From positions 14,364,990-14,428,989 of the forward strand of contig CM067302.1 in NCBI GenBank assembly GCA_034231615.1: 64,000 nucleotides of DNA, given 5' to 3'. Positions 2-61,499 of the stretch are shown here, piece by piece. Each line of letters begins with the position of its first letter. Positions within the stretch are counted from its first letter, which is position 1. The notes beneath the pieces were generated by a model that had not been told where the DNA came from, made no database searches, and saw nothing but the letters and a program-made list of their open reading frames with translations. The DNA comes from Meghimatium bilineatum. Its lineage: Eukaryota; Mollusca; Gastropoda; Stylommatophora; Philomycidae. The translations under genes were made by a program, and so were the position numbers.

Positions 2-1373
2 ATCCTGAGAAAACTAAGTGGAACCACATGGGGAGCCAGTGGAAATATACTCAGTAAAGTTTACCAGCAAGGCATAAGACCACACCTGGAATACGGTTCA
101 GCTGCGTGGTGTCCTGCATCAAACACCACATTACAAGATCTAGATAAAGTGCAAAACCAGGCACTTAGAATAATGTTGGGAGCAATGAAATCAACACCCA
201 TAGCAGAGATGCAGAAAATGGGAAGAATGCAAACACTTGGCGAACGCAGAGACACAAAAGTACTAATTCAAGCAGAAAAGTTTCAGTGTATGCCAAGCCA
301 TCCAATGAAGGAAAGATTCCAAAATCTAGCAATGGGACGACTGAAAAGGAGCAGCTTTATCCATCAAGCTAAACGACTCCGTAGACAACTTACAGACCTA
401 CCTGAAGTTGACAGCCCCTTAAGGTCTGTACCAGAGCAAACCCCGTGGAGTGAAAGCCATGGAATGCCAATATACATTCAGACCCATGTGAAAGGAATAC
501 TAAGCGAGGACGAACAGAACAGTGTGCAGCGAATGACAGTCACCCTCAGTTTCCTGGATGAGGAATATCCACAAGATATATGGGTCAGAGTGTACACAGA
601 TGGGTCAGCACAGAATGCTGTGAGGAATGGAGGTGCAGGTGTATATATAGAATATCCACACAAGCCTAGAGATACAATCAGAACACCGACAGGAAAATTC
701 TGCAATAATTATGATGCAGAAATCCAGGCAATTAGTGTGGCAGCTAAAAAACTGCTGAACTCCAACTCTGACCTACAGCCTGTGGTATTCCTGACAGATG
801 CAAGGTCAGTGCTTCAAGCTCTCCAGTCTGGAAAACTAACAGACTTAAAAAAACTACTTAGCGAATTGTCTTACCAGTATAGGGTAACCATGCAGTGGAT
901 ACCCTCTCACTGTGGAATACCAGGAAATGAAAAAGCAGACAAACTGGCTAAGGAAGGTGCTGCCGAAGACCAACCAGATATACCAATCACCTACCATCAG
1001 AAAAAACAGATGATAAAGTCAATAAGAAAGCCACAAACACCAACACAAGATGACTATCACAATATGAACAGATCAGAACAAGTTATAATTCTACGTCTCA
1101 GAACAGGACACAACCGACTCCGCAGTCACATGTATACAAAGTTCAAGATTGGCAACACGGCCATGTGTACATGTGGACAGGCAGCACAGAGTGCCAAACA
1201 TATACTTCAAGAGTGTTCTGAGCATGAAACGCTGAGGCAGACATATTGGCCAGAGGAAACAACACTGGAATCAAAACTCTATGGGACACTGTATGAACTA
1301 CAAAAGACAGTGAGTTTTATTAAGGAGACAGAATTACAGATATAGACATGTTTCAAGTGAACGAAAGAAGAAG
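2..1373 (+). mobile_element. LINE 3' part: RT tail, RNase H, C-terminal zinc motif
   Basis: The frame is open from the left edge to the stop at 1343-1345. It begins in the end of a reverse transcriptase (GIRPHLEYGSAAW type) and continues into an RNase H domain. All four RNase H acidic positions are visible: D in YTDGSAQNA (about 595), E in YDAEIQAI (about 715), D in FLTDARSVL (about 795) and D in GNEKADKLAK after the conserved WIPSHCGIPG. A CxC...H...C cluster (CTCGQAAQSAKHILQEC) follows, as is usual at the C-terminus of I-like and related LINEs. The 3' UTR is very short and ends in GAACGAAAGAAGAAGAAG at about 1358-1376. The 5' part lies outside the window. This copy has no break inside the window and so looks young. 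The clade (I, Nimb or Ingi-like) is inferred from the RNase H and zinc layout. Confidence 0.85.
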
Positions 1374-1857
1374 AAGAAAATATATATTGCAATAAATAAA
1401 ATTTGGGTACATAACAGTCTAATGTGTCTCTTTTTTTACAAAATAAACCATACATCATTTAGCGAAACAAGCTATCGCTACAGGCTCATACAATGCAGCA
1501 ATCGTCAATCTGCATGCAACGTACTTTGAGGCCTCTTTCCCCCCCCCCCAGGGAAGACTCTTGGGGGAGGAAGGGAATCAGTGCTTTTGTGCACATATCG
1601 AATGATCGGTAGCAGACTCTCCATGTTTTTTTATATCCATGTAATGGAAGCTGTATGTAATCAAACCTAATATTAAGAAGCTGGAATATATTCGCAGTGA
1701 CCAAAAATTTAAACCAATGTTTGTATTTTAATTAAAAAATTAATCATATGGTCTATACCATCTCAAATTCACACATAAAATTTCAATTATAAACGTTACA
1801 TATTTGCTGAGATACATCATTTTGAAGTTAGGCAAGGCTAGAGAAATGTGCTGCAAA
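1374..1857. other. non-coding spacer
   Basis: AT-rich sequence between the LINE tail and the large array. It contains a C-run near 1540 next to a G-rich stretch, giving a short inverted repeat (about 1538-1570). I recognise no gene or element here. Confidence 0.5.
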
Positions 1858-4800
1858 TATGAAGAGAGAGATGAAGATGAAGATGAGAGAATAAAATGAA
1901 GATGAGAGAAGAAGATGAAGATGAGAGAAGAAGATAAAGATGAGAGAAGAAGATAAAGATGAGAGAAGAAGATGAAGATGAGAGAAGAAGAAGAAGATGA
2001 GAGAAGAAGATGAAGATGAGAGAAGAAGATGAAGATGAGAGAAGAAGAAGAAGATAAAGATGAGAGAAGAAGATAAAGATGAGAGAAGAAGATGAAGATG
2101 AGAGAAGAAGATGAAGATGAGAGAAGAAGATGAAGATGAGAGAAGATGAAGATGAAGATGAGAGAAGAAGATAAAGATGAGAGAAGAAGAAGAAGATAAA
2201 GATGAGAGAAGAAGAAGATGAAGATGAGAGAAGAAGATGAAGATGAGAGAAGAAGATGAAGATGAGAGAAGAAGATAAAGATGAGAGAAGAAGAAGAAGA
2301 TGAAGATGAGAGAAGAAGATGAAGATGAGAGAAGAAGATGAAGATGAGAGAAGAAGATAAAGATGAGAGAAGAAGATAAAGATGAGAGAAGAAGATAAAG
2401 ATGAGAGAAGAAGATGAAGATGAGAGAAGAAGAAGAAGATAAAGATGAGAGAAGAAGATAAAGATGAGAGAAGAAGATAAAGATGAGAGAAGAAGATGAA
2501 GATGAGAGAAGAAGATGAAGATGAGAGAAGAAGATAAAGATGAGAGAAGAAGAAGAAGATGAAGATGAGAGAAGAAGATGAAGATGAGAGAAGAAGATGA
2601 AGATGAGAGAAGAAGAAGAAGATAAAGATGAGAGAAGAAGATAAAGATGAGAGAAGAAGATAAAGATGAGAGAAGAAGATAAAGATGAGAGAAGAAGATA
2701 AAGATGAGAGAAGAAGATAAAGATGAGAGAAGAAGAAGAAGATGAAGATGAGAGAAGAAGATAAAGATGAGAGAAGAAGAAGAAGATGAAGATGAGAGAA
2801 GAAGATAAAGATGAGAGAAGAAGAAGAAGATGAAGATGAGAGAAGAAGATAAAGATGAGAGAAGAAGAAGAAGATAAAGATGAGAGAAGAAGATGAAGAT
2901 GAGAGAAGAAGAAGAAGATGAAGATGAGAGAAGAAGATAAAGATGAGAGAAGAAGAAGAAGATGAAGATGAGAGAAGAAGATAAAGATGAGAGAAGAAGA
3001 AGAAGATGAAGATGAGAGAAGAAGATAAAGATGAGAGAAGAAGATAAAGATGAGAGAAGAAGAAGAAGATGAAGATGAGAGAAGAAGATAAAGATGAGAG
3101 AAGAAGAAGAAGATGAAGATGAGAGAAGAAGATAAAGATGAGAGAAGAAGAAGAAGATGAAGATGAGAGAAGAAGATAAAGATGAGAGAAGAAGAAGAAG
3201 ATAAAGATGAGAGAAGAAGAAGATGAAGATGAGAGAAGAAGATAAAGATGAGAGAAGAAGATAAAGATGAGAGAAGAAGAAGAAGATAAAGATGAGAGAA
3301 GAAGATAAAGATGAGAGAAGAAGAAGAAGATGAAGATGAGAGAAGAAGATAAAGATGAGAGAAGAAGAAGATAAAGATGAGAGAAGAAGATGAAGATGAG
3401 AGAAGAAGATGAAGATGAGAGAAGAAGAAGAAGATGAAGATGAGAGAAGAAGATGAAGATGAGAGAAGAAGATAAACATGAGAGAAGAAGATAAAGATGA
3501 GAGAAGAAGATAAAGATGAGAGAAGAAGATAAAGATGAGAGAAGAAGATGAAGATGAGAGAAGAAGATAAAGATGAGAGAAGAAGAAGAAGATAAAGATG
3601 AGAAGAAGATAAAGATGAGAGAAGAAGATGAAGATGAGAGAAGAAGAAGAAGATGAAGATGAGAGAAGATGATGAAGATGAGAGAAGAAGATAAAGATGA
3701 GAGAAGAAGATGAAGATGAGAGAAGAAGAAGAAGATGAGAGAAGAAGATGAAGATGAGAGAAGAAGATGAATATGAGAGAAGAAGAAGAAGATGAGAGAA
3801 GAAGATGAAGATGAGAGAAGAAGATGAAGATGAGAGAAGAAGAAGAAGATAAAGATGAGAGAAGAAGAAGAAGATGAAGATGAGAGAAGAAGATGAAGAT
3901 GAGAGAAGAAGAAGATGATGAAGATGAGAGAAGAAGATGAAGATGAGAGAAGAAGATGAAGATCAGAGAAGAAGAAGAAGATGAAGATGAGATAAGAAGA
4001 TGAAGATGAGAGAAGAAGATAAAGATGAGAGAAGAAGATGAAGATGAGAGAAGAAGAAGAAGATGAGAGAAGAAGATGAAGATGAGAGAAGAAGATAAAG
4101 ATGAGAGAAGAAGATGAAGATGAGAGAAGAAGAAGAAGATAAAGATGAGAGAAGAAGATGAAGATGAGAGAAGAAGAAGAAGATAAAGATGAGATAAGAA
4201 GATGAAGATGAGAGAAGAAGATAAAGATGAGAGAAGAAGATAAAGATGAGAGAAGAAGATTAAGATGAGAGGAGAAGGTAAAGATGAGAGGAGAAGGTAA
4301 AGATGAGAGAAGAAGATAAAGATGAGAGAAGAAGATGAAGATGAGAGAAGAAGATAAAGATGAGAGAAGAAGCAGAAGATAAAGATGAAGAAGATGAAGA
4401 TGAGAGAAGAAGAAGAAGATGAGAGAAGAAGATGAAGATGAGAGAAGAAGATGAAGATGAGAGAAGAAGAAGAAGATAAAGATGAGAGAAGAAGAAGAAG
4501 ATGAAGATGAGAGAAGAAGATGAAGATGAGAGAAGAAGATAAAGATGAGAGAAGAAGATGAAGATGAGAGAAGAAGATGAAGATGAGAGAAGAAGATGAA
4601 GATGAGAGAAGAAGATGAAGATGAGAGAAGAAGAAGAAGATGAAGATGAGAGAAGAAGATGAAGATGAGAGAAGAAGATGAAGATGAGAGAAGAAGATGA
4701 AGATGAGAGAAGAAGATGAAGATGAGAGAAGAAGATGAAGATGAGAGAAGAAGAAGAAGATGAAGATGAGAGAAGAAGATGAAGATGAGAGAAGAAGATG

Positions 4801-10702: not shown

Positions 10703-10752
10703 TAGAAAACACATTTCCTTTAATATACTAAAACTGATGTCTGACAATTCAC

Positions 10753-11760
10753 AACATGCTAACTTACCACTAGTTGTGAACAATTGAACATGCTAACTTA
10801 CCACTAGTTGTGAACAATTGAACATGCTAACTTACCACTAGTTGTGAACAATTGAACATGCTAACTTACCACTAGTTGTGAACAAATGCTAACTTACCAC
10901 TAGTTGTGAACAATTGAACATGCTAACTTACCACTAGTTGTGAACAATTGAACATGCTAACTTACCACTAGTTGTGAACAATTGAACATGCTAACTTACC
11001 ACTAGTTGTGAACAATTGAACATGCTAACTTACCACTAGTTGTGAACAATTGAACATGCTAACTTACCACTAGTTGTGAACAATTGAACATGCTAACTTA
11101 CCACTAGTTGTGAACAATTGAACATGCTAACTTACCACTAGTTGTGAACAATTGAACATGCTAACTTACCACTAGTTGTGAACAATTGAACATGCTAACT
11201 TACCACTAGTTGTGAACAATTGAACATGCTAACTTACCACTAGTTGTGAACAATTGAACATGCTAACTTACCACTAGTTGTGAACAATTGAACATGCTAA
11301 CTTACCACTAGTTGTGAACAATTGAACATGCTAACTTACCACTAGTTGTGAACAATTGAACATGCTAACTTACCACTAGTTGTGAACAATTGAACATGCT
11401 AACTTACCACTAGTTGTGAACAATTGAACATGCTAACTTACCACTAGTTGTGAACAATTGAACATGCTAACTTACCACTAGTTGTGAACAATTGAACATG
11501 CTAACTTACCACTAGTTGTGAACAATTGAACATGCTAACTTACCACTAGTTGTGAACAATTGAACATGCTAACTTACCACTAGTTGTGAACAATTGAACA
11601 TGCTAACTTACCACTAGTTGTGAACAATTGAACATGCTAACTTACCACTAGTTGTGAACAATTGAACATGCTAACTTACCACTAGTTGTGAACAATTGAA
11701 CATGCTAACTTACCACTAGTTGTGAACAATTGAACATGCTAACTTACCACTAGTTGTGAG
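10753..11760. repeat. 34-bp tandem array, about 30 copies
   Basis: The unit contains CATGCTAACTTACCACTAG followed by TTGTGAACAATTGAA, 34 bp in all. Copies are almost identical; one near 10882 is shortened by a few bases. Uniformity implies recent amplification or active homogenisation. Each unit contains the palindromes ACTAGT and CAATTG. Confidence 0.95.
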
Positions 11761-11960
11761 CATCGAACAAATATCGTCTCAGCCATTTCAAGTATCTCTA
11801 GCTCAGTGTCACTGAGATACCCTGTCGAATATGTCCTATTAATTAAAATATAAAACACATAGATAGACCTCCTTCAAGACAAGAAATCTCTTAAATGTAA
11901 TTAAGATCAGATCAGAAATGCATATAAAAGAAAATTTTCAAATGTAAATAAAAACTGGTT
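11761..11960. other. unique AT-rich spacer
   Basis: Short non-repetitive stretch between two arrays. No gene or element recognised. Confidence 0.4.
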
Positions 11961-11964
11961 AAAG

Positions 11965-12735
11965 TGTAATAAAAACAGACACGGAACTGCTATTTCAACA
12001 GAAAATAGATGAACTACTATTGGTACAAAAAACAGAGAAGAAACTACCATTGCTATTAAAAAACAGAGAAGGAACTACTATTGCTATTGCTATTAAAAAA
12101 GACACAGAACTAATATTGCTATAACAGTCAAGGAACTAATATTGGTATAAAATGAACTAATATTTCTATAACAGGAAAAAGGAACTTCTTCTTCAGCGTT
12201 CATTCTCAAACTCCCACTGGATTTCTCTTGTAGTAGGACAATGGTCCTACAAGATTTCCAGTTGAATGTAGTCCAGAGAATGGAAATGCGTTGTGTTGCC
12301 GTTTTATTTGCGCCAATGGCCCAACACATCCATCTTCAGCGGAGAAAAAGGAACTAATATTGCTATAAAACATACAAGGAACTAATATTGCTACAATGCA
12401 GACAAGAAACAAATATTGCCATAAAAACATACAAGGAACTAATATTGCTATAACACAGACAGGGAACTAATATTGTTACAAAACATAACATGAACTAATA
12501 TTGCTATAACACAGACAAGGAACTAAAATTGCTATAACAAACAGGGAACTAATATTACTATAAAAGATAAAAGGAACTAATATTGCTATAAAACATACAA
12601 GTAACAAATATTGCTATAACACAGACAAGCAACTAATATTGGAATAAAAAATAAACAAGGAACTAATATTGCTATAACAATGGACAAGGAATAACCTTGT
12701 TGTAAAAAACAGACAAGGAACTACTATTACTACTT
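11965..12735. repeat. degenerate 28-30-bp array (GGAACTAATATTGCTATAA)
   Basis: About 25 diverged units around the core GGAACTAATATTGCTATAA, followed by an ACA/GACAAG linker. The array is split by a SINE at 12187-12343. Much more degenerate than the 34-bp array beside it, so probably older. Confidence 0.85.
12187..12343 (-). mobile_element. SINE-B copy with 12-bp target-site duplication
   Basis: A 157-bp insertion in the 29-bp array, flanked by perfect copies of GAAAAAGGAACT (12175-12186 and 12344-12355). Read on the minus strand it starts CCGCTGAAGATGGATGTG and ends AATGAACGCTGAAGAAGA. The same sequence recurs at 41817-41979, 47768-47915, 48276-48776 (three tandem copies) and 56294-56448. 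No coding capacity. It is non-autonomous, and its 3' tail matches the RNase H LINE at the left edge. I could not identify a clear tRNA, 5S or 7SL head. Confidence 0.8.
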
Positions 12736-17215: not shown

Positions 17216-17966
17216 GACTTTAATATTTAGCTGTGAGCAGGTAGCTCTTGACAGACCATAGTCTTTCTGACAAAATCACAGGTTTTTATCAGTGGTTAAC
17301 TGAGGTGACATCCAGACTCATAAAGGTTGTCTCAAAAAACATGGTTGAGTAAGGGATGTTTATTTAGTCGCCAGATGGAGACATTCCAGTGTGCTAGTAT
17401 TCCAGGTTTATTAAGTCTTGCCAGGGGCACAGCACACACTTCTGGGAAAACTAGCTCATAATGGGACAAGATTGTTCAACTTGAGTACATGCTTTACTGC
17501 CAAACATGTGGTGATACTCAGACTTGTGTAAGGGGTTCACAATGTCAGTGAAAGACACCTCGGCTAAGAAGGTGAAAGAGCCCTGGTCCAAATCTTCTGT
17601 CAAGTTCTTCCTAAACAGGAACCAGGCTCGTGGATGAGAAAAGGTTCAGTACCCAATGGGCACAGGCACAAAAAAGCCAATTGCACAAGACAAGTTCCCT
17701 GGCTGCAGAAAATCTCATGTGAAAAAGACATGAAAAAAAATGTCCCAGCAAAGAGTCGGTACAGATAGGCAGGCTGTCACATGTTAAGGAAGCCGACTAC
17801 ACGAATTAAAGGCATGATGAAATGGATGTGCTGGGTCTCGAATGTCCAGGCCACAAAGTGAGTCAGCTGAGGTGCAAAAAACAGTTCTACTGTGGAACTT
17901 GCAGTACAACATACCTCACGATCCCCTGTGGAAATCACATGATTTATTCATGGTGGTTACCTGAGA
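17216..17966. other. unassigned sequence, perhaps body of an AGAAGA-tailed element
   Basis: No coding frame recognised. It ends in GAGTGAACGCAGAAGAAG at about 17967-17983, the same 3' tail as SINE-A and SINE-B, so part of this stretch may be the body of another non-autonomous element. The left boundary is not visible. Confidence 0.35.
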
Positions 17967-18350
17967 GTGAACGCAGAAGAAGAAAAACTAACTCATCATT
18001 CTTCTGTTAGATTTGTTGACACATCTGTAATGATGGCACACTTAGGAGCCTGACACAAAAGGACAAAGGTGCAATGTCTGCTGGCCTGCATCTCTTTGCC
18101 ATCCACAGGGATTATTTGATAGAAAAGAAATTGGGACAAGATCTGACGATGATTTTTCACAGGTGACAGGTTGTCAGCGCATTCCCCCAACTTTCCTTAG
18201 CTGCCTCCTAACCATGCCTTTGAGAGGACCTTGGAGAGAAGGTAGTAGCCCTATTATTTACACCCTGAACGAGGTAAAAGTCCATGCCCCAGTTTCTACA
18301 CTGGCATATTACTGGAGGTAATTATAGAACTGGTAATAAGATACATTACC

Positions 18351-18623
18351 ACGCCTGTGTTTTGCTGGGGCCCGAAAGGGGAGCAAAGAATAGCAACACG
18401 ATTTACCTTCCACGAATGTCGTAAAAGGCGACTAAGGAGGTTATGGGATGGAGTTGGTTGTCCCATCCCATATAGGGTCAGTGACCCAAAGCCATGCTGA
18501 AGTCGGATGTGTCCGGCTGAAAGGCGTAGATATCGCAGCAATGCTGTAAACCATGACACGCATTCTGTTCTCCGGACTACATCCTGCTAATCTGCAGGAG
18601 TTTGAGAACGAACACAGAAGAAG
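18351..18623 (+). mobile_element. SINE-A copy with 13-bp target-site duplication
   Basis: 273 bp flanked by perfect AAGATACATTACC (18338-18350 and 18624-18636). The head contains GGCCCGAAAGGGGAGCAAAG. The middle contains a 9-bp perfect stem (ATGGGATGG ... CCATCCCAT) and a second stem GGGTC-AGT-GACCC. The tail is GAGAACGAACACAGAAGAAG. Other good copies are 43423-43697 and 54923-55199; partial ones are at 23758, 42527, 42935, 43225, 47895, 51450, 52599 and 55598. It has no ORF and is non-autonomous. Confidence 0.82.
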
Positions 18624-18639
18624 AAGATACATTACCCAA

Positions 18640-29874: not shown

Positions 29875-30320
29875 TATCATCATCAGGTGCCATGCCGGCC
29901 GGCGTAGGCGGTCATGACTTTCCACAGCTCTCTGTCCACAGTATTATGTATCAAAGTCACTGTTGTTTCCTTATCGTGCCAGGCTGTCAAACTGTCTAAT
30001 ATTTTCTCACGTTATCGCCCTCAGTCTCAGTTGCCTTCAATTTTGCCTGTTGTGACTATGTTCTCTAAACCTGCTTGTCTCATGAAGTGGCAAAAAAAAA
30101 TAAGATTGCCTTTTTCTTATATTGTTGATTAAGGTCCGTATCGTAATTGACTCTTTCAACACCTCTACATTAGTTTTTCTGGCAGTCCATGGTATTCTCG
30201 GCATTCTTCTGTAGAACCACATATTGCCTCTAATTTCCCACTTTCCAGTTTGTTTATTGTCCAAGACTCGCACCCATATGTTAGTACAGGTGTTATATAG
30301 CACTGCTGTCACACTTTTGT
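29875..30320 (-). mobile_element. LINE C-terminal fragment with TGATGATGA tail
   Basis: The minus strand reads NMWFYRRMPRIPWTARKTN, then IRKRQSYFF and HETSRFREH, and ends in CACCTGATGATGATAA (about 29876-29891 in reverse). This is the standard C-terminal layout of APE-type LINEs. Its relative on the + strand is 44800-45215. Confidence 0.7.
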
Positions 30321-30522
30321 GGACAAGCCAACCAGACTTCAGAACAAATCCTTCAAGAATGTGCAAACTATGACACATTAAGATGCACATACTGGCGTTC
30401 TGATACACCGATGAATGTTAAACTTTATGGTACAAAACAAGAAATGGAAAACACTGTCCAATTTATACAAGAAACAACACTGCAGATATAGACATTATTA
30501 GCGAACGAAAGAAGAAGAAAAA
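30320..30522 (+). mobile_element. 3' end of an RNase H LINE (same family as 2-1373)
   Basis: Reads TSEQILQECANYDTLR, then VKLYGTKQEMENTVQFI and ETTLQI-stop, closely matching the C-terminus of the copy at the left edge. The 3' UTR has ATAGACATTATTAGCGAACG and then the AAAGAAGAAGAA tail. 5'-truncated. It lies only about 120 bp upstream of the MRPL39 start codon. Confidence 0.8.
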
Positions 30523-39700: not shown

Positions 39701-42700
39701 AATCCCGAGTAAACTTACTACACAGCCCTTAACCTGTGACTGACCTAGCACGTCGACAAGGGATACACAAAGTGCTCAAAAAGAAACTTAAATGGAGAGG
39801 AAGGCACATCAAGGGCAAAAGACCGTACACTCACTCTCCCCTCAACACCGAAAGGTACATGAGGACAGAAAGAAGAAGAAGAATAAAGATCAGGCAAATA
39901 CAATTTTTTAACACATTAAAAGACATGACACCGTGTTGAAGACCTTACTTGAGGGTAAAGTCAAAGGGAAGCGAACATGAGGTAGGCAGAGATAGAAGTG
40001 GGAGAGTAACATCACAAGATGAACAGGTTACAGTCTAGCAGAGTGCACCACCAAATCAAGAGATGGGATGTTGGAGGTTTGTTGCGGTGACATCACTTGA
40101 TGATGATGAACAAAGTGATTTATAAATGAATTCTGTAACAAAATGATTTATAAATGAATTCTGTAACAAAATGATTTATAAATGAATTCTGTAACAAAAT
40201 GATTTATAAATGAATTCTGTAACAAAATGATTTATAAATGAATTTTGTAACAAAGTGATTTATAAATGAACTCTGTAACAAAATGATTTATAAATGAATT
40301 CTGTAACAAAATAATTTATAAATGAATTCTGTAACAAAATGATTTATAAATGAATTCTGTAACAAAATGATTTATAAATGAATTCAGTAACAAAATGGTT
40401 TATAAATGAATGATGTAACAAAATGGTTTATAAATGAATTCTGTAACAAAATGATTTATAAATGAATTCTGTAACAAAATGATTTATAAATGAATTCAGT
40501 AACAAAATGGTTTATAAATGAATTCTCTAACAAAATGATTTATAAATGAATGATGTAACAAAATGGTTTATAAATGAATTCTGTAACAAAATGGTTTATA
40601 AATGAATTCTGTAACAAAATGATTTATAAATGAATTCTGTAACAAAATGATTTATAAATGAATTCTGTAACAAAATGATTTAGAAATGAAAGGTTTAATG
40701 TGTTGTTCGTTCTACAGGCCTTTTGGAAAACATGTTCCTTTATACTGGGACATGTCCTAGAGACAGCATTGGAGGATAAATATTATGTTGAGTTATGTAG
40801 CTTTCCACCACCAAATGGCAAGTATATATTTGAATCTGCCTTGTTTCCTTTAGAGCATAGATCAGTGATTTGTCAATCTTTGATGATATTTGTTTTCTGA
40901 CTGACTTTGTAAGCTTTATTTGTAAAACATTTATACTTTATCTTGTTAGCTGCATCAAGGGCATACCTTAACATAACTAACAATGATCGCTACAGGAATG
41001 TTTAGAAACTGGCCAGCCCATTTTGATGTTTAACACTTTGCACACTAGCAATCCAGAGCATACTTGTCCGCCATTACCAAGGGTGCACGCAAAATTTTAT
41101 ACATTGACATTCACCGTCTTTAAAAATCTATAAAATCGATCTAGCGCGAGAAAGCCTTGAAACTTTCTATGTGTTGTAACGACTGTTTGCACTTTCTGCA
41201 TGAATTTGAATGCTCCAGAGTTATTTCAAGTACAAAATGCTACTTATCATAATGCTAGGCCTAGATTTACATTAATTTCTATATAGCATACATTTCCTTC
41301 GAAATCTCCGATATTTCTTGATTAAAAACTCACCTACTGTGTCGATATCCTTATTCCCGACATTCCGCCATTTTTACAGAACATAATTTCTTGGAAACAC
41401 TATTTTTAGCACATTATTGTAATGGGTATTCCAATTTTTCTGATCTATCATAGCGCATTCGACTAGCGTCGAACTTGGTCAGCAAGGTTCTGTAACGAAA
41501 TTCGACTAGCTTCTAAATTGATCAGCAAAGTGTTAATGGTTGTAATACTTCTTTGTCTTTTTTGCTGTTCATGGTATATACAAAGTTTTCTGTAGCATCT
41601 CAATTCGAAGGCAGCAATTTTCATTGCCACTGTTTTATTAAGAGCCCAAGCGTCTCAGCTTCACAACAGGGAATACATATGTTCTTATTCTTCTTCTGCG
41701 TTCAGAATCTGTGGTCATGCTATATCGTTCTTATCATACACAGTTTTATTTTGCTACTGATAGCGTGTCAGAGATTTTTCATTAATATATAATATATCTC
41801 TCTTGTATAAATAACCACAGCCGAAGACGGATGTGTTGGGTCATTGGCGCAAATAAAACGGTGACACAACGCATTCCCATTCTCTGGACTACATCCTGCT
41901 GGGAATCTAGTAGGACAATGGTCCTGCTACAAGGGAGATCCAGCGGGAGTTTGAGAATGAACACTGAAGAAGAAGAAGTATAAATAACCAAAATGCCAGA
42001 AGATATCCGACACAGTGGAGAGTTCCACAGTAATGAAACAAATAAGTGCTAATTACTAATTGAGTTATAATGTTACGGTAGACCTATTCTAAATATAAAA
42101 TAGAAAAATGAATAAATAACTAAACAAAAGTACAAAAATGTTTTCTCCACGTTACGGCCAAAGTGGGGCCTTTTTCAAGAAACATTTAAACAAAAAAAAA
42201 CAACACAGAAATTAATCGAAATATTTAAGTCTGATCACTTAGGTATGTTCTTCTCACTGCAGAGTTTTGTGGTCTACTGTAACATTATAACTCAATTAGT
42301 AATTACCTCTCTTGTAACCGAAATATTTAAGTCTGATCACTTAGGTATGTTCTTCTCACTGCAGAGTTTTGTGGTCTACTGTAACATTATAACTCAATTA
42401 GTAATTACCTCTCTTGTAACAGGATCACTGTCGTACTAGATTTCCAACATATATGTAGTTCAGAGAATGCGTTGTGTCACTGTTTTCTTTGCACCAGTGC
42501 CCGACACATCCATCTTCAGCGGAAGTTGGTGGGGTTTGAAAGGGGAACAAAGAATAGCGACTGCAAGCCGATATATCATAAGACGTGACATAGCAGATTT
42601 TGGGTTGGATTGGCTTTCCATTCCCATATATGGTCATCTCGATATGGGAAGCAGCATAGACAAAGAAAATTGAAGCCGATTGCTTGTTGGTTGGTTGGTT

Positions 42701-45700
42701 GGTTGCTGACCCAGCGGTCCATGGGCTCACGCCCTTTGACCCAATGCCATTGTGTGATATATGCATGTGTTTGTGAGTTGTTGTTTTGTTCCATATAATG
42801 TGTTCCATTTATCTAGCCCTGGAGGGAGAAGTATTTTCCTGATGTCATTCAGCGCTGGACATTCAAAAAGGTGGTGGTCAACAGTTTCATATGGATGAGT
42901 GCACAGCCGGCACTCTAGCCGATTGCGTGTGTTTTGATAAGACTTGAAAGAGGAGCAAAGAATAGAGAGACTGTTATCTGCCATGCATGTTGCAAAATAT
43001 GCATTCTGGCCTTTCGGCCACTCCCTCAACTCGCTTGCCAGTTATGTCATCCCTGCTCATCGTTTTTAGATGTATATGTGTATGTAACCCTGATAAAGGC
43101 CTTTTGGTTGAAACGTTGATTTGTGTGTGTGTCTAGTTATTAGCAAAACTTATTACTCTATTTCAAACTTTCCTGTTGGATTTCAGTTTTGCACAGTGAG
43201 CACATTTTATTGATGTTGTAAAAAGGAAGTTTTGGGGTTGGCTGTCCCATTGAATAGAGGGTAAAAGTGACCCAGAATCAATGCTAAAGTCAGACAATGT
43301 GTCATGATGAAAGGTGCAGATATTGCAGTCAAGCTGTAAACCACAACACAACAAATTCCTTTCTTTGTCTGGATCTTGCTAGCCAGCTGGCATTTAAGAA
43401 CAAATGCAGAAGAAGAAGAGTCGCCCGTGTGTTGCTGGGGCCCGAAAGGGGAGCAAAGAATAGCAACACTTTACCTTCCATGCATGTCGTAAGAGGCGAC
43501 TAAGGAGGTTATGGGATAGAATTGGCTGTCCCATCCCATATAGGGTCAGTGACCCAAAGCCATGCTGAAGTCGGATGTGTCAGGCCGAAAAGCGCAGATA
43601 TCGCAGCAATGCTGTAAACCATGACACAACGCATTCTGTTCTCCGGACTACATCCTGTTAATCTGCAGGAGTTTGAGAATGGATGAAGAAGAAGAAGAAG
43701 AGTCCCCAACTGCTACAACACATTCTCAAATCTCAGTTTCCAATGTTACTATCAATACAATGTAACTGCGTGAAATGTAACAACAATTAGACTTACGTAA
43801 AACACAGGTTTATATAATCGCTTCAATCAGACACGACAAACTATAAGTAAAACTAGTTTCCAATGTTGAGATTTATTTATAACTACTAATATTGTTTTGT
43901 TTCTCTCTCTAGTTTCCAGTGGCAGTTTTGTCTATGACGCTGATCTTAAAGTTGGTGACAGGCCGTTCACTCAGGTATGAGAAATTCTGTCCGTCTTCGT
44001 GTTATACCCCTTAATGCTTTGCAGAGACAATGGTAGAAGAGTTCTCTGGAGACTGTCTTTTTATGTGCTTCACATATTTTTGTTTTCATTGAGTCTTTTA
44101 TTTCTGTAACCCATCTTTTGTATGGTTTGCCCGTGGCTTGTTATCCATAATTTATATTGATTGTCATCTCCTGAGAACACTTCATGTTTCCTAACGAGCG
44201 GTTTAGTTAAATTTATGTTAATTTTGCCAAATATAAAAGTGAAAAAAATGTATAATTAAAACAGACATTCACAAGCTTGGAAGAAAAGAATAAGGAATCA
44301 TTTTTAGATTGAGAACAGGCCACAACAGACTCAAAATGGGTACTGGATTAATCCGGGAAGTAAAGACTGCGAGGGAGAGGAGATGGCTACCGGCCCTCAT
44401 TTGCAGAGCCTCTGAAATGTGAGATCGCTAACATCTCACACCCCTACTGCATTAATAAATGCTACGAGTTACTTTACTTTTTTTTTTTCAACAGACACAA
44501 ACAAGACACATACCCATATATGAGATTTGGAATTCGCGATTATGACATGTGGACAATCTGCAGAAGTCAGAACTACCCACTGTACCACACACAACACACC
44601 ATATGAAGAAAGCTATGACCATCAGAAATAGTTCTCATGGATGACCATCAGAAATAGTTCTCATGGTCAAGCTCTACAACCCTGTCATTGGGCTGACAAT
44701 CGCTACAGTTCATTGAGGACATGCATACCAGCATCTGACTCTGACAAGAGAACGAGGAAAAATAATAATTTATGTTTAGCATTTTGTCTCATAAAATTAA
44801 CACAAGTTACAAAGGTGAAATATCTTGGCACCATGTTAACAATAGAAGGTAGATGTTCAAGTGAGATAAAGAGCTGAACAGCACAAGCAAAATCAGCATT
44901 CCGAAAAATGAGAACCATTTTATGCAATTGAACACCATCAATGCAGACCCGAATTTGAGTGCTGAGATGTTATATCAAGTTTATTTTTTATGGAAGTTAA
45001 GCATGGACTGTAAACACAAAAATTCAAAAGGAACTGGTGGGTACAGAGATGTGGTTTCTGAGAAGAATGATGAAAATACCATGGACAGCTAATAAAACTA
45101 ATTCAGATGTTCTCATTTATGCTTGCGTAAAAAAATCAATCATATCAAATATCAGGGGCAGGCAGTCAAAATTTCTAGGGCATGTGCTGAAAACACAGCT
45201 TGAACACTTTCGGCCTCGCACTTGATTGATTGATTGAGTTTGCCTTATGTTTGGAAGAAATTCAAGTCAAACATGCAAGTAACAGAAGACACCAAACAGC
45301 AATATGTTTCTACAACAATAAGAAGAAAATGATGGACTTATATCGAGCATTTGCTTAGAATTAATGAAAACAGATTACCTACCACTACAAGCATTAAAAT
45401 GGGTACCAGATGATAAAAGAAAAAGAGGAAGACCAAGAGAGACTCTTGCAGAACAATCATCAAAGAGGGTATCAAGACTGTGGGTCTCAAGAACATGCAA
45501 GAGTTATACACAGTAGCATCACATCGCTCAAACTGAAGAGATCTGGTTTCTGCCCTATGTGCCGTGTTCAGCGCTGAAGTAATAGATTATCATCATGTAA
45601 CATATTATTTCCAGAATGTTGTCTTTGTAGTTTATGTCCTGAACCAGACTCTATCCTGTGCCAATCTGCCTACCTCCTCCAGTGAACGCCTTCATACAGT

Positions 45701-48700
45701 CTTTGATGTAATCTGTCCCTCTCTTTCTAGGTCTACCGTTTCTTCTACTTCCCGGAATTCTTCCCTCTAATATTCATCTTTCCATGCCATTGTGTTATAT
45801 GTCCGAAATATTTCAGTTTTCTATGTAAAATTGTATTCACCAGCCATCCTTCCTCTACATTCAGCATATTCAAAACCTCACTGTTCCTTATCTTTTCTGT
45901 CCAGGAATTTCTTAACCGTTAGGCCCCTACGGTCGCAACATTGCGCCTTGCGTGTGCATCCCGTAGTGCCTGTTGTCGCAATCACGCAACATACGATATC
46001 ACTCAATTCCCGAGTACGTAACTTCACGAAGTTAAAGCTTATATGACGTAGAATTCCCGCAACACGAAGCTAGGAATACGTCACAGTTTAAAGGTCAAAT
46101 TCCTTTACTCATTACGATTGTAAGAGAGAGAAAGCCGGTTGAATATGTCAACGCATTTCTAGAGCGACTTTAGCCATTTTCGGCCGTATTTTACTATCAA
46201 ATTGAGTACCGCGTGGCATGGGTAAGTGATCGTGACTACATGTTCTAATTGTTGTTTTTTGTGTTTAATATGTTGTTATTTGATAAGAATGTGTGTGTAT
46301 TCATTAAAAAGCACAAAAATAATATGTATCAGGGGTGACACGTGTGTGCATGGACAATAATTACGCTGCGTGTCGGCATAGACCTAGTGTTGACCGGACG
46401 GACGTTATATGCAATTTCTTCACGTTTTATTAGTCTTTTTAGTTCATATTATATTAGTTTTGATATAAAACAATACATATACAATAAGTATAGGTATTTA
46501 TGAGGATTTTATCAATGTTGCCACACATTGCTCATGTATTAGGGTCGTCACGAAGATATATTTGCGATTTTGAAAATGACGTTTTGCGTTTTTCGCCAGA
46601 ATTTTCAACTTCAAAACGTGCTCACAACTGTCATATCACACATACAACAACAACAAAAAACACGATAATATTCACTATTCACTCCTTTATTTAGATGTGC
46701 AAAAATTATTTTGATATCTTTTAAAACAAAAAAGTTATGACGTTTTCAAAACACCCACCATCAATAACGCAAATTTTCCAAAAAATAAGTCAGGCCCTGG
46801 GGGAAGTTTTGTAATTTTAAGCCAGGGCTCTAAAGGTTAATATTGCCCTATAACACTTCCGTTCGAAATCTGATATTCTTATTAGTTTTATTTATTGCTC
46901 AAGTCTCACAGCCGTAAGTTGCAACTAGAAAAATGAATGATTTAAGAACTATAACTTTTGTCTCTTTATAACAGGAACATTGATGGATATTGTCTCTTTA
47001 TAACAGGAACATTGATAGATGGATGGATGGATATTGTCTCTTTCTAACAGGAACATTGATAGATATTGTCTCTTTATATAACAGGAACATTGATGGATGG
47101 ATAGATATTGTCTCTTTATATAACAGGAACATTGATGGATGGATAGATATTGTCTCTTTATATAACAGGAACATTGATGGATGGATGGATATTGTCTCTT
47201 TCTAACAGTTTATAATAGGAACATTGATAAACGACATTGTATTGTCTCTAGTCCAATAACAACCCAAAAAAATAATTACGTCCAACAACAACAAACAAAA
47301 TAATTATGTCCAACAAAAAAAAAAAATTTACGTCCAACAACAAATAATAAAAAACCATATTCTTTTTTTTTGTAAACTTTAGACAGAGCTCAACTGTTTC
47401 AGTAGAATTGGTCTACGTCTGAGCTATGAAGAGCTCAAGTTTGAGAGACTAGATGTCCCAGTTTCTCTGGTCCATGAGATGTTTGCTGACAATAGGTTTA
47501 AGAGATTGCAGGTTTCAGCAATTGCAGACAAGTCTAAATCTGGCTCATCTGTGACTGTCTACAGAATGGGAGATCACATTGATATGAGCTCTGGTCCATT
47601 TATCTCAAATACTTCACAGATTGGAAGATATTCTGTGTGTGCAGTAAGTACTTTTGCTTTCTTTGTCCAACTGTGTGTGCAGTAAGTACTTTTGCTTTCT
47701 TTGTCCACCTGTGTCTTGCCAGGGTGTGAAAATATAGGAAAGAACAGTGACACTGTTAATTGCCATGTATCCCTCTGAAGACGGTTGTGTCGGGCTGTTG
47801 GCGTAAATATAATGACAATGGATTTTCATTTTCTGGACTATATTCTTTTGGAAATCTAGTAGGATCATTGCATTGTTACGAGAGATACAGCATAAGTTTG
47901 AGAATGAATGTTGAGGAACTGCCATGCATGTTGTAAGTGGTGACTAAAGAGGTTTTGTAGTGGAGTTGGCTATCCCATCCCATAGAAGGTCAATGTGATC
48001 TAGAAACCATGCTGAAATCGATTTGTTAGACTGAAACGCACAGATATTGCAGCCGAGCTGTAAACCATGAAAGTACATTCCGTGCTCTGAAGTACATCCT
48101 GTTAATATGCAGGAGTTTGAGAACAAACACAGAAATTTCTTTTGTCTTCTTCTCTGTTCCATGTTTCCTGTCTCTGATTTCTGTTCTGTGCCTCCTGCCT
48201 CAGACTTCAGTATTTATTTCAGGAGTAAAATCAACCTGCTGTTCATTGATTAATGATTTTCTGAACTGATGTCATCAGCCGAAGATGGATGTTTCAGGTA
48301 ATTGGCACAAATAAAATGACAACACAACACATTTCAATTCACTGGATTACATCCTGCTGGAAATCTAGTAGGACTGTGGTCATGCTTCAATAGAGACCCA
48401 GTGCGATTTTGAGAATAAGTGATGACGAAAAAGAACTGATGTCATCAGCCGAAGACGGATGTTTCAGGTAATTGGCACAAATAAAATTACAACACAACAC
48501 ATTTCAATTCACTGGATTACATCCTGCTGGAAATCTAGTAGGACTGTGGTCATGCTTCAATAGAGACCCAGTGCGATTTTGAGAATAAGTGATGAAGAAA
48601 AAGAACTGATGTCATCAGCCGAAGACGGATGTGTCAGGTAATTGGCACAAATAAAATTACAACACAACACATTTCAATTCACTGGATTACATCCTGCTGG

Positions 48701-51700
48701 AAATCTAGTAGGACTGTGGTCATGCTTCAATAGAGACCCAGTGCGATTTTGAGAATAAGTGATGAAAAAGAAGAAGAACTGATGTCGGAATACTCCGAGC
48801 ATCACTATAGGAGTTCCGTCTCTTTTAGCAGATGGCGAAGGGTATGTATGTTGATAGTTCCCATAACACATTGGCTGTATAGCTACTTCATCCTACCCCT
48901 TACCTTAATCATTCTGCTCTATTATCTGCCTAATTTCTTATTAAAATAAGTAGCTCTTATTCTGACTCTGTGGAACAGAACATGTCAGCGATAGCCAAGG
49001 TACAGGGTTTGAATCCTGCCACAGGCAATTGTACATCCGTACCATGAGAAAGCAATGGCAAATTACTGAACATATTTATATTGCATAGAAAATCACTACA
49101 GCCAAAAAATGTTGGATTTAAAGCTCCATCCTTAATAGGATACGTTACCAATTTTTAATTCTAAGCAAAAAAAATTCTTCAATCTATATGCTAAGCCTCC
49201 TTCACCATATTGTCTTGGTCCAAATGTCACACGCATCTGCCCTGACCCCTCCCGTGCTCTTGAAGTCAGTCTCAGCTTTTTTATCACCCTGAACTTCATC
49301 TGTAGAGCAATGAAGCCCATAGGTGTCAGGTAAAGTGTGTTCATCAATAGTTGATCACAGGTATAGTCTATTATCTCCAAAGTTACTGAGTGTATGAGCC
49401 GCATATTTTGCATGAGTGTGTTATTTAGTAACCACGCTAAAGATTTATGATTAATTGTTATCTAGACTGAACGACTTACAGTAGTCGCCACGAATTTTCG
49501 TTTTTAAGGTAGCAATACTTGTTTGTTGATAGCCATAAAATAGACGGGTTTACAGTACAAATTACCATATTTTCTGTCACTGAGGGGAAATATGTCTTAT
49601 TTGTATATTTTTTTCTTCTCTCCAGCTCTTCATTGGCTGTTAGGCAAATTATAAATACATTTGCCAATTAAAAGCACAATAAAATAAGAAGACGTCATTA
49701 TTTATTGAATTATATTGCAGTGAAATGCGTATTAAATAGCTTAATGTTAGAATGGAAATTAATTTTTTAATGAGTGCGGCATTAAGTAAGCGTTTTATTT
49801 ATTTTTAGAGATTTCTTTGTAATATCTTAAAATAATAGCTAAACTCGTTTCCTCAAAGGTGTATCTCATATTCAACGTTTTTTTATTGTGGTGTCTTCAA
49901 CATATCAAGTTTTTGTAATTATTTACAGCGTATCATAAAGCAGCATTTACAACTATAATATAGCCATATTTTTGAAAGTTAAAATCATTACACTGAAAAG
50001 TATAGCTGTTAGATTGCAAACACTATGCTCTCCGCCATTGACAAAGAAGGTTGAAAGTGGAAGAAGAATATTGGCAGAAAGGTGCTTCATTCAAGCAACT
50101 ACAATTATCGATCTTTACGATACATTGTATTATTAATAGAAAAATAAGAAGAATTCGAAACAAGGACAGGAGAAGACAGAGAAGAAGGATTTAGATAACA
50201 TCAATATAATAGTGAACATATCAAAACAACACTGCCGAAGTGGCATATCTATCATTGTAAAGACATGATATTTATATATAATATATATCCTCGCTGGACA
50301 ACAAGACCATACTGGCAATGGTTAAACATAGTAAACTGTTGTGATTTAGTAATTTGATGAGAAGTGAAGTTCTCTCTAGAACAGTCACGCAGAGCAAAGT
50401 AGGTGTACAGAGAAAAGGTGGCCAACATAAGGTCTGGACTGATAATATTAAAGGCCGGACACTTTTGAATTTCGCCGCATTGTAGAGTGAACTCAGAAAA
50501 TGTTTATGTTAAAGATTCCAGAATACCAACACTAGTACTTAGAATGTTTATACTAGGATGATGATGACTATGGTAAGTACTGAATGTTTATTTTAAATTC
50601 TCAAGAATGTAAATAATACAATTTCATAAACGTTTAATTGTTAACTTTATATCTTGTTGCATATAATCTCAACACAGCGAAAGAAAAATATTACATTCTA
50701 CATATTTCATTTTACCCATGTTACAACAAATGGAGATACGCCTATACCAGCAATTACTGTAAAATTTCTTTTCCACATACAATAAAATCATTGCTACCTT
50801 AAAAACGACATTCATAGCTACTGCTGTGTTAAATCCATTCAGTCTAGATAATAAATAATCATAAATCTTTAACGTGGTTATGAAATAATACACTCATACA
50901 AAATATGAAGCTCAGTAATTACGGAGATAATAGACAATATCAATGATCAACTATTGATGAATGCACTATAGCACGGATTTTCTGTATTAAAAAGATTTTG
51001 GGTCCCCAAAAACTCCCATTAAAAAAAGGTCACTTGGTGTTAAATTATTACTTATGCTGACATTTTATCTCGCACGCTCATATTTAGGGGCAAAAATAAA
51101 TTTGTGTGGATTTTTGTGTTTTGGTGCTAAATACGGACGTTTTTATTGCAATACGGAAATAAATTGTTAAATATATGGATTTATGGAAAAATAAATTGTA
51201 GCTATGGAAACCTCAATATTGATATATTTCTAACGGATGCCCACGTATGTGTTTTATTACTTATAATGTTTGTTTTATGTGCATCATCAGATACATACCA
51301 TTGAGAGCCAGACTTTCGGCAAGCTGCACAGGGTTCAGGGCCTTGCGTTGCCGTCACAACTAACTGTAAGTATAGCCAGGATTAAAGAAGGCATTTCTTT
51401 GGTTGTTTTATGGTGGTCTAATTTCTCATTTCCATAAAATGCTGTTGTGTTAGAGGGCTTGAAAGGAAGAGCAAAGAATAGTAATACTGTTAACCAACCA
51501 TGCATGTCGTAAGAGGTAACTACAGAGGTTTGAGGGTGAAATTTATTGTACCATTCCATAGGTTAAAGTGACTTAAAAGTCATGCTGAGTCTTGATTAGA
51601 AAACTGGCCTCACAGCACGTGGGGCATTCCCATAAGTGCTCCGCCCTCTGTTTCAGCAGCCATTCGACTTGATGATGTTTGGAATCCAATGCCGCCGAAA

Positions 51701-54700
51701 CAGATGTCGACATCAGGGCACATCTCTGGCCTTTGCGACAGGTTTCTTTGTTGTTCCGCCCACTCATGCTGTACCCGTAACGAGTTCAAGCACAACGTCT
51801 GCCTGTCGGAACAATATGGTAACTGTTATCGAAAGTTACGACTACGGGATTGTATAGATGACATGCCATGAAGCTTCTATACAAGATAACCTCAATATAA
51901 AGGCATATCATCTACTAAGGTTCTCTGTTGCATGGTTTGTTTGTCTATTGAGTCATTGGTGAGACCCACAGACACAACCACATGCGCAAAGTCATGCTGA
52001 AGTTGGATATGTCATGCCAAAAGGTTCCAGATATTGCAGTCAAGCTGTAAAATCATCATATAACACATTCCATTCTCCGGATTACATCTTACTGATTAGT
52101 AGGGGTTAGAGAAGGAATACTGAAGTTTTAGGCTTTGGGTCTATGGACCGCTGGATCAGCAACCAACCAGTTTCAGAACTTGTGGTATCATAATGTTACT
52201 TCTGTGTAATGTATGATACATTTTTGCACATGTGAGACACTTTGACCCTCTATGGGATAGGACAGTCAACTACTTCCCCCCCAATCTCCTCAGTCACTTC
52301 TTGCAACATGCATGGCAGATATCATCTTCATCAAGTGCTGTCACCACAACAGACCTCCAACATCCCATCTCTTGTTTTGGTGGTGCACTCTGCTAGACTA
52401 ACCTGTCCATCGTGTGATGTTACTCTCACAATTTTATCTCTGCCTAACCTCTTGCTCGTTTCTCTTTGACTTTGCCCTCAAGTAAGGTCTTCAACAAGGT
52501 GTTATATCTTTTAATGTGTCCAAAATAATTTTTTTTGCCTGATCTTTATTTCTCTTAGTAATTCTTTCTTCATATTAAGCGTTTTTAGCATCTCTTTCGC
52601 CCATGTGTTGTCCGGGCCTGAAAGGGGATCAAAGAATACCAACACTGTTTACCTTCCATGCATGTCGTACTAGGTGACTATGGTGGTTATGGGATGGTGT
52701 TGGCTGTCCTATCCCATATGGGGTCAGTGACCCAAAGCCATACTGAAGTCGGATGTGTCAGGCATTTTATAAAGACTGATGGGGCACGGTTAAAAAAAAA
52801 GCTTGGGAAACACTGTTCTAGCATGAAAAATTGAATATTGTCAGTGATAGTGACTACCCACATCTTTTCATTGGATCTTCTCCAGATTTCTGACAGTTAT
52901 ATACGCAAAATAAACAATAGTGACGTCTACACAGGAATAAATTATAATGGACATCGCTTTTTATTTGACACAAAAAAAAAGAACATTAATTTATGTGTAA
53001 ATGTTTGTTTCATCATTTGCCGTTGTGAACTTTCAGCTACACTCATGGACTTACGACACGATTCTGAGGCCGAGGGCAGCAAAAATTGTGAGTAGATTTA
53101 TGATTCTTTAATGTCAGCTTATCTATCGTTCATTCTCAAACTCCCACCAGATCTCGGTTATATCAGGACAATGGTCCTACTAGATTTCCAGCAGGATATC
53201 CTCGAAAGAGTTCATCTCCAAAGGCAGGTTACTGCAATGGGACATACCTATACTGTTGCCTATTAAAATTTGACTTTAAATAAAACAATAGCAAAGAGAA
53301 TTTCTGCTTTCAAAATGAGAAACTACAGATGAATGTTGCGTATACTATGGAAAGCTAAAAGGACAAATCAAGAAGTGTTAGATCAATAAACGTTAAAGTG
53401 TGCTGGCTCCTTAACAACATTCTAACAAGAAAGCTCTGTGTTTTTGGTCATATAAAGAGACATAACAACATGGAAAGATTAATAGCTGAAGGCAGAGTTA
53501 ACACGGCAACAGGGAAAGAGGGTGCCCAAGATGACGATGGTGCAGTGATATATCAATTTGTTTAAACATCTCTAGCTGCGGCATGTCAACTTGCCCAGAA
53601 TCGCAGAGTTTTCAGAGAATCCATAAGGAATACCACATTCTGGAAAGAATGTCATATGATGATAATTAGAAGTGAGTTCATATGAATATCTTGAAATTTT
53701 CTGTAATGTATGTCAAATGTACTTACCAACTAGGCCACTTTGACATATTTTCCACATGTGAGTAATTCTTTAGACAACCCATACACATCATACTCATATT
53801 TTTATTAAAATGTTGCAAATAACAAAGTTAACACTTTGCTGACCAATTTTGACACTAGCCAAATTTCCGTTACAGAACCTTGCTGACCAAGTTTTTGCTA
53901 GTCGAATGCGCTATGATAGATCAGAAAAATGGGAATACCCATTGCAATAATGTGCTAAAAAATAGTGTTTCCAGGAAAGTATGTTCTGTAAAAATGGTGG
54001 CATGTCGGGAATAGCGATATAGACATAGTAGGTGAGTTTTTATCAAGAAATATTGGAGATTTCGAAGGAAATATTGTATGCTATATAGAAATTAATGTAA
54101 ATCTAGGCCTAGCATTATGATAAGTAGTATTTTGCACTTGGAATAACTCTGGAGCTTTCAAATTCATTCAGAAAGTGCAAACAGTCGTTACAACGCATAG
54201 AAAGTTTCAAAGCATGTAATATATTTTGGTAGAGTTAGGGGCATGTAATATATTTTGATAGAATGTAATTCAGATACTAAAATGCATTTCATGGCTTATA
54301 ACTTGGCTGCAATATCTGTGCATTTTTGGTGTAATACATCTGATTTCATCGGGGCTCAGGGGTGTGGATAGATGTGCAGGATAGAACAGTTCACATGACT
54401 AATGCCAAAACATCTGTACTCCTGCGACATGCATGAATGGTCAAAGTGTTATATTCTTTGCTCCATTTTCAGATCTTGACATCACACAGTATATTAACAC
54501 TTTTCTCACCAGCAATCCACAGCGGACTTATCCGCCATTACTGGGAGTGCACGCAAAATTTTATACATTGATATCGCCGTCTTTAAAAATCCGTATAAAA
54601 TCGATCTAGTGCGAGAAAGCCTTTCTATGTGTTGTAACGACTGTTTGCACTTTCTGCATGAATTTGAAAGCTCCAGAGTTATTTCAAGTGCAAAATGCTA

Positions 54701-55962: not shown

Positions 55963-56293
55963 TAGATAATTCTATGGACTATATTCAAAGGAGAAGATTT
56001 CAGTTGTAAACGTGTACTGTACAAATATTGCTCGTTATTGAAAAAATGATACGTGCTGTTTATGTGTGTTTGGCATTGCATCACTAATTTCCAATGTCAT
56101 TTGAAGTATGTTGATATAAGATGTGCACATCATTTCTGTTTGATGTATCTTGAAGATCATATGTTTGTATAAGTTTTGTACTAACCTGTATAAGAAAGTT
56201 CTAAGACTATTTGATTTGAGCAATGTTTAACAAATGAAATAGTAACAGGAGAAATCACTGCTCAAAAGTCACCTGAATTGAATTAGTGTACTC
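55963..56293 (+). other. MRPL39 3' UTR (end not defined)
   Basis: No AATAAA is seen before the SINE-B that follows; the first AATAAA is inside that SINE at about 56325. The real polyadenylation site is unknown. Confidence 0.4.
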
Positions 56294-56448
56294 TGCTGAA
56301 GACGGATGTGCCGGGCCATTGGTACAAATAAAACGGCAACATTTCCATTGTCTGGATTACATCCTGATGGAAATCTAGTAGCACAATAATCCTTATAAAA
56401 GAGAGATCCAGCGGGAGTTTGAGAATGAAGGCTGAAGAAGAAGAAGAA
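56294..56448 (+). mobile_element. SINE-B copy
   Basis: CTGAAGACGGATGTGCCGGG to AATGAAGGCTGAAGAAGAAG. Contains CAAATAAAAC near its start, a possible polyadenylation signal for the gene upstream. Confidence 0.75.
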
Positions 56449-61400: not shown

Positions 61401-61499
61401 CTCTGACCACAGTCATTGAGACACTGAGGATATAGGTTGCTTTTTGTGCACTCATTTAGATCATGGTCTTGGTCTTCTTCTTCTTTCCGTCCTCTTTTA

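Follow-up and report, generated by a model that had tools for sequence, protein, structure and literature searches.

Which LINE copies the short retroposons of this locus? The window, that is, the whole stretch of DNA analysed here (C5:14364990-14428989, 64 kb of a 1.61-Gb genome in 32 contigs), carries several short elements whose 3' ends resemble that of a LINE with RNase H. We refer to the short families as SINE-A, SINE-B and SINE-C, names assigned in this analysis; the sequence-only reading that raised the question gave no coordinates for them. Our reading, to which we give a probability of about three in four, is that SINE-A, SINE-B and probably SINE-C form one superfamily of non-autonomous retroposons that would be copied by the machinery of a LINE that we call LINE-beta, or by that of a closely related or closely ancestral LINE.

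Tail variants in the window and in the genome

The LINE 3' ends previously claimed for the window were borne out at 1359-1378 (GAACGAAAGAAGAAGAAGAA) and at 30503-30520. The first belongs to a copy of LINE-alpha (2..1378, plus strand), whose 5' part lies outside the window and whose frame, open to 1345 and containing RNase H (PF00075 RNase_H, E 2.9e-16), is followed by a short 3' UTR and the tail GAACGAA(AGA)n at 1359-1378. The second is the 3' end of LINE2 (30285..30522, plus strand; tail GAACGAAAGAAGAAG), a relative of LINE-alpha at 56% on the amino acid level over 57 residues. Shared tails expected near 17967 and 41687 were likewise found, as GAACGCAGAAGAAG at 17969-17982 (+) and 41690-41703 (-), and the same sequence recurs at 55181-55194 (+). 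LINE-alpha ends in GAACGAAAGAAG, whereas the SINEs end in GAACGC[A/T]GAAG, and we set apart four tail variants: GAACGCA, GAACGCT, GAACGAAA and GAACGATG.

All three tails counted across the genome are very frequent. GAACGCA(GAA)n, searched as the 20-mer GAACGCAGAAGAAGAAGAAG, was found at 12,851 places (6430+6421; reversed control 0+0), GAACGCT(GAA)n (GAACGCTGAAGAAGAAGAAG) at 11,342 (5539+5803; reversed control 0+0), and the alpha-type tail GAACGAAA(GAA)n (GAACGAAAGAAGAAGAAGAAG) at 8,677 (4354+4323; control 2+2). Within the window, with the satellite array excluded, GAACG stands no more than 15 nt upstream of 7 of the 39 AGAAGAA runs against 0.11 expected from the local rate, several of the seven being homologous copies and thus not independent. 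A long satellite-like array of AGAAGATGAAGATGAGAG-type units, at about 1861-10520, raises every count of GAA tails made over the window. At 10751-11769 a unit of about 34 bp is repeated in tandem, and other short arrays follow up to 12732.

Owners of each tail

We assigned owners to the GAACGCA places by reading the sequence at 40 of the first 41 matches listed, all on contig C1 (place 2497942 was left out), with truncated or deleted copies included in the SINE-A type. The SINE-A type owns 26 of these places, SINE-B five, LINE-beta seven and other sequences two, the pairs L028/L029 and L039/L040 being duplicated regions. The first 32 matches listed for GAACGCT, again all on contig C1 and including the duplicated pair L071/L072, belong to SINE-B (28) and SINE-C (4), and a LINE with this tail was found in none of the 32 places. 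The LINE share thus stands at 7/40 for the CA tail versus 0/32 for the CT tail (p 0.015). Since these 32 places hold no LINE with a CT tail, most SINE-B and the genome copies of SINE-C are left without a matched helper.

In contrast to the CA tail, all of the first 20 matches listed for the alpha-type tail are owned by LINEs, 17 of the alpha type and three of the LINE2 type (L104, L112, L114). The assignment follows from a protein match in 19 places and from a 27-nt identity in L113, so that the alpha type comprises 16 protein matches plus L113. In L106, 29 nt of SINE-B lie antisense at the far end, outside the LINE and in its flank. SINEs hence own 31/40 of the CA tails versus 0/20 of the alpha tails (Fisher p 2.4e-9, for places sampled from one end of contig C1, duplicates of each other among them). 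Because no SINE is found among the 20 alpha-tail owners, the CA-tailed SINEs carry the ending of LINE-beta and not that of LINE-alpha, though both LINEs have the GAA run.

An identical GAACGCA(GAA)n end is therefore present on SINE-A, on part of SINE-B and on LINE-beta. The sequence-only reading had proposed modular SINEs borrowing the tail of one RNase H LINE, and the shared GAACGCA(GAA)n end supports this; agreement limited to the simple GAA run, which would have spoken against it, was not what we found, as the GAACGCA part is identical too. The proposal that the short elements share the tail of an RNase H LINE is thus supported for LINE-beta, and not for the LINE that it had named, the alpha copy at 1340-1380, whose type of tail is LINE-owned in 20 of 20 places.

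The classes also differ in divergence from their consensus sequences, which amounts to 2.8% for LINE-beta (n=6, without L024), 5.0% for SINE-A (n=20), 4.3% for SINE-B with the CA tail (n=5) and 7.7% for SINE-B with the CT tail (n=26). SINE-C with the CT tail, at 4.8% (n=3), is not older than the CA classes. LINE-alpha, at 0.9% over 14 copies (six of the 20 were left out, namely the three LINE2-type copies and L098, L107 and L113), has the lowest divergence among the classes measured and is the younger LINE.

The matching LINE

The 3' end of LINE-beta reads ...TATAGCATGACCACATGCTGAACGCAGAAG. Its domains were each recognised in a different copy: Exo_endo_phos_2 in L017 (1.6e-19), RVT_1 in L024 (3.4e-24) and RNase_H in L023 (1.5e-13). 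Judged by this predicted domain content of endonuclease, reverse transcriptase and RNase H, LINE-beta is I-superfamily-like. Its C-terminus is 36 to 43% identical to that of the window alpha copy where the two can be aligned (L015, L017, L019, L023). The seven LINE-beta copies show the graded lengths of 5' truncation and are 91 to 97% identical, apart from one pair at 85%. Clear TSDs flank two of the seven (L024, L032); none was found for L015 and L017, and the TSD matches of L019, L023 and L026 fall in repeats or far from the end.

LINE-beta is represented in the window as well. The end near 41687, previously listed among the short elements, turned out to be a 5'-truncated LINE-beta 3' end of 38 nt (41689..41726, minus strand) with the tail GAACGCAGAAGAAG and the TSD ATAAGAAC at 41727-41734 and 41681-41688; its stretch TATAGCATGACCACAGATTCTGAACGC differs from the beta copy L023 at 1 of 27 nt in a comparison by eye. 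Upstream of GAACG, the LINEs of the window, this fragment included, show no similarity to SINE-A or SINE-B. At the 3' end, LINE-beta and the SINEs are identical only in GAACGCA and the GAA run, and a blastn search with the SINE consensuses recovers no more there than the final 16 to 20 nt of LINE-beta. A tiny insertion in L039 and L040 (tail at 451) consists of about 22 nt plus a GAA tail, ends in GATGCTGAACGC and has an imperfect TSD by eye; it is possibly an extreme 5' truncation of LINE-beta.

Structure and copies of the three SINE families

SINE-A measures about 277 bp and SINE-B about 155 bp, each with a fixed 5' end and flanked by short TSDs. They behave as SINEs in being short, TSD-flanked and, by the tail counts, of high copy number. 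At E 1e-5, the A model gave 76 hits and the B model 62, with cross-hits between them, in a sample of 274,620 bases made up of the window and L013-L052, loci picked for holding the tail. A TSD score of at least 8 was reached by 17/23 SINE-A and 15/18 SINE-B copies, compared with 8.7% and 7.8% of mismatched flanks, in a set that kept only full-length hits exceeding a score cut-off (23 of 28 A and 18 of 41 B hits, the dropped B hits being mostly A copies) in which three B copies form one tandem array and L028/L029 is a duplicated region.

Three SINE-A copies in the window are full-length, all on the plus strand: 18352..18629 with the TSD ATACATTACC (18341-18350); 43422..43702, for which the tail of an older SINE-A served as target and whose TSD includes AGAAGAGTC; and 54923..55198, with the TSD ATAGCRCTTTC (one mismatch) and the tail GAACGCAGAAGAAG. 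The older, diverged copy is found at 43188..43418 (+; tail GAACAAATGCAGAAG; nhmmer E 4.6e-28), and a copy at 52598..52763 (+) is without its 3' part (nhmmer 1-166, E 1.3e-49). At 47706..48136 (+), a SINE-B insertion (47771-47918) splits a SINE-A, with A-model hits 3-66 and 56-269 around the B hit and a possible TSD TGCCATG. Two further old copies on the same strand lie at 51440..52131, in two pieces (51455-51589 and 51985-52125) with other repeated sequence between them, and at 55594..55855 (E 2.9e-32).

Single SINE-B copies were located at 12185..12343 (-; tail GAACGCTGAAGAAG, TSD GTTCCTTTTTC), 41817..41976 (+; TSD GTATAAATAACCA) and 56292..56446 (+; TSD GAATTAGTGT). Three tandem SINE-B units at 48275..48776 (+), near-identical by eye, each followed by the repeat GAACTGATGTC and set apart by their target-site repeat, are probably a local duplication of one insertion. 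SINE-C was recognised from the genome copies L059, L066 and L071, has long and short forms, and is present in the window as a long form at 17570..17985 (+), which aligns with these three copies, has its tail GAACGCAGAAGAAG at 17969-17982 and ends at 17985; its 5' end was not located.

The short elements had been called unrelated, which does not apply to SINE-A and SINE-B. With the tail removed, the whole of SINE-B aligns with the 3' half of SINE-A (0/1000 shuffles), interrupted only by an enlarged hairpin and by a gap of some 15 nt, and the apical hairpin is much larger in SINE-B. The start of SINE-B maps to position 143-145 of SINE-A, where short A copies start too (L041, L024), from which it follows that SINE-A is a head joined to a unit of the SINE-B or short-A kind. 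The two families were thought to share about 60 bp and to differ in their heads; the shared part is about 130 nt, and SINE-B is without the head of SINE-A rather than having another one. SINE-C is probably related to SINE-A, as suggested by their sequence similarity (2/1000 shuffles for A-C; 2/300 for the window C copy, among about 35 pairs compared), and the similarity of B and C alone is not significant (165/1000).

We searched the SINE heads for a known RNA gene origin. ARAGORN found no tRNA-like head in the window and six loci, an Rfam search gave no tRNA, 5S or 7SL match, and a scan for A and B boxes did no better than shuffles (170/200 and 98/200). The best Rfam match of the SINE-A head, a Giardia snoRNA model at E 0.98, was rejected, and so was TeloSII_ncR30 at E 3.3 for the SINE-C locus L066. 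Among seven folded SINE-A and SINE-B copies, four (A43, A54, B41, B12) form a bulged stem directly ahead of the tail, whose basal pair is G-C in the A copies and A-U in the B copies. A different fold was obtained for A18, B56 and B48, and the folding of alpha and LINE2 was poor. For LINE-beta a small hairpin, GCATGACCACATGC, was noted by eye only, and its sequence is unlike that of the SINE stem.

The SINE core and the start of LINE-beta ORF2

Less certain than the shared tail is a resemblance of about 75 nt of the A/B core to the start of LINE-beta ORF2 (blastn E 0.06 with A, 0.009 with B). When 4 kb of a single beta copy served as subject, the match was reached in 1/400 shuffles for the A core and 0/400 for B, and with a 399-nt majority sequence of 14 beta copies in 1/1000 for each, the two being no independent tests because A and B are homologous; a value of 0/1000 for the core alone was not counted, its bounds having been chosen from the match. 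SINE-C gave no significant match to LINE-beta (754/1000). The core stretch occurs exactly at 158 places in the genome (73+85; control 0). In LINE-beta it sits upstream of the endonuclease within a frame that is open; of 1016 candidates 150 were scored, and most of these are free of stops. The stretch is internal to the element, as the alignment continues further upstream in 13 of 14 copies (across a deletion in L015), L089 alone being the exception.

The match could mean that the SINE core came from the LINE, or the reverse. In the former direction, we tentatively suggest, while thinking it rather improbable, that the ORF2 start of a beta-like LINE may have supplied the A/B core (TGCYGAAGWCGGATGTGTC..GGCGCARATA..ACACAACGC, which is the 5' end of the headless SINE-B) and the tail of that LINE the 3' end, and that a change of one or two letters in the tail (GAACGCA vs GAACGAAA) may separate two co-resident LINE families of which the SINEs follow only one. 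If true, these SINEs would be bipartite parasites put together from pieces of the helper. Their origin would be RIME/SIDER-like, and the genome would offer a natural experiment on tail recognition.

Other parts of the SINEs were compared with LINE-beta as well. The SINE-A head gave no significant match (83/400; 132/1000 anchored; 346/1000 local), nor did it when anchored over 60, 80 and 143 nt (122/2000, 319/2000 and 831/2000), and the middle of A and B beyond the core gave 850/1000 and 519/1000, again not significant.

Discussion

In the mechanism that we propose, the LINE protein would recognise the 3' end of the SINE RNA, GAACGC[A/T] plus GAA repeats, because that end equals or nearly equals the LINE's own; it would then nick the target and carry out target-primed reverse transcription of the SINE RNA. 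The beta protein is the most likely helper judging from the tails, and we infer that the feature recognised is the GAACGC part, as opposed to the preceding hairpin or the GAA run alone. Since each SINE copies its tail from its own RNA, the tail is a record of descent and selection and no proof of the enzyme behind any single copy. LINE-alpha could also act on the SINE tail.

One alternative is that any LINE of the clade mobilises the SINEs, that only the GAA repeat matters, and that GAACG is shared by old descent. In its favour, GAACG precedes the GAA run in alpha, LINE2, beta and the LINE of L022 (GAACGATGAAGAAG) alike, a LINE type that lacks GAACG ends in GAGGACRGAAAGAAGAAG, and the CT-tailed SINEs met no identical LINE tail in 32 places. 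Yet the CA-tailed SINEs agree with a single LINE in every letter of the tail and SINEs were absent at 20/20 alpha tails, and we regard the alternative as unlikely; as the tail is inherited within the SINE, this evidence speaks against the alternative without deciding the matter. Convergence, in which the tails match by chance or by microsatellite slippage into GAA with no common machinery, draws on the shortness of the non-repetitive match, only about 7 nt. It strikes us as very improbable in view of an exact 7-nt junction in beta, SINE-A, part of SINE-B and the window copy of SINE-C while the other 3' sequence differs, and in view of GAA tails and TSDs in both the LINE and the SINEs. The donor originally named, LINE-alpha, is a related LINE with the same GAACG, the same GAA run and the lowest divergence (0.9%), but its tail differs (GAACGAAAGAAG) and none of its 20 sampled owners is a SINE, so that a loan from LINE-alpha can be given hardly any credence.

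A LINE-SINE tail partnership, as we propose for LINE-beta, is of an already known kind. The MetaSINEs and 'jigsaw' SINEs of gastropods and bivalves are modular SINEs with common middle parts and LINE-derived tails; our SINEs would resemble them in this build, with the difference that the search for a tRNA-like head was negative. For two zebrafish LINEs, ZfL2-1 and ZfL2-2, Hayashi et al. 2014 (PMC4176376) report that the LINE proteins strictly recognise their cognate 3' tail, and 3' stem-loops are described for several stringent LINEs, eel UnaL2 and others, in PMC5135761. The stringent pairs and ours have in common the SINE/LINE 3' end and co-resident LINEs that keep different tails. They differ in that no more than about 7 nt of non-repeat sequence are shared in our case, that beta and the SINEs appear to have unlike hairpins, that the LINE has RNase H, and that our pair is proposed from sequence; the common end exists, in short form, for the CA tail and is missing for CT-tailed B and C (0 LINE in 32). 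In trypanosomatids, according to PMC4035085, the short elements NARTc, RIME and SIDER keep sequence from both ends of the endonuclease-RT-RNase H LINEs L1Tc/ingi. The SINEs of the slug would share the two LINE-derived parts only if the core match holds (here the CA-tail 3' end is that of the LINE, and the core reaches 1/1000 each for A and B and 754/1000 for C), and they differ in that the LINE-like core is internal to beta, in the open frame before the endonuclease, and not at the 5' end of beta.

Our literature searches found no description of these SINE and LINE families, a point that PMC11203168 and PMC10294476 do not settle. Relatives in viral contigs were neither found nor confirmed, and four prokaryote records (L001-L004) from a pattern search of genome contigs were taken as chance matches. 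Copy numbers in this partnership are very high, and two related LINEs stand side by side with tails a letter or two apart; in the sample, only one of them has SINEs with its tail, making alpha a natural control. The minimal sequence needed for a LINE protein to recognise its RNA thus becomes directly testable, and this in an RNase H LINE as opposed to the zebrafish LINEs of the assay study. Should the core match hold, a SINE would have been assembled from pieces of its own helper.

Other repeats of the window

LINE-G, at 61472-61690 (-) and 39700-39882 (+), has a C-terminus with GRPRVRWIDNIK and ends in GAGGACRGAAAGAAGAAG without GAACG, and its copy at 61690 has the TSD GACCAAGACCAT. Over the last 50 nt it showed a resemblance to SINE-A (4/1000 shuffles, in a comparison of 36 pairs) and a similar fold; as a tail donor, LINE-G (tail GAGGACRGAAAGAAG) was set aside, not disproved, after the exact tail was found on LINE-beta. 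A second RNase H LINE type, at 33981-34784 (+) and 42695-42916 (-), enters CCAACCAA repeats and not GAA at its 3' end. Outside the window, a further RNase H LINE in L022 (about 3170-4515, minus strand) seemingly has its stop codon inside the tail motif GAACGATGAAGAAG. A common repeat of about 140 bp occurs at 27369-27509 and 44339-44478, one copy beside an RNase H LINE fragment. Finally, a 376-aa open frame at 37130-38260 (+) matches DDE_Tnp_1_7 (Pfam, E 7.4e-68), which we take to be piggyBac-type.
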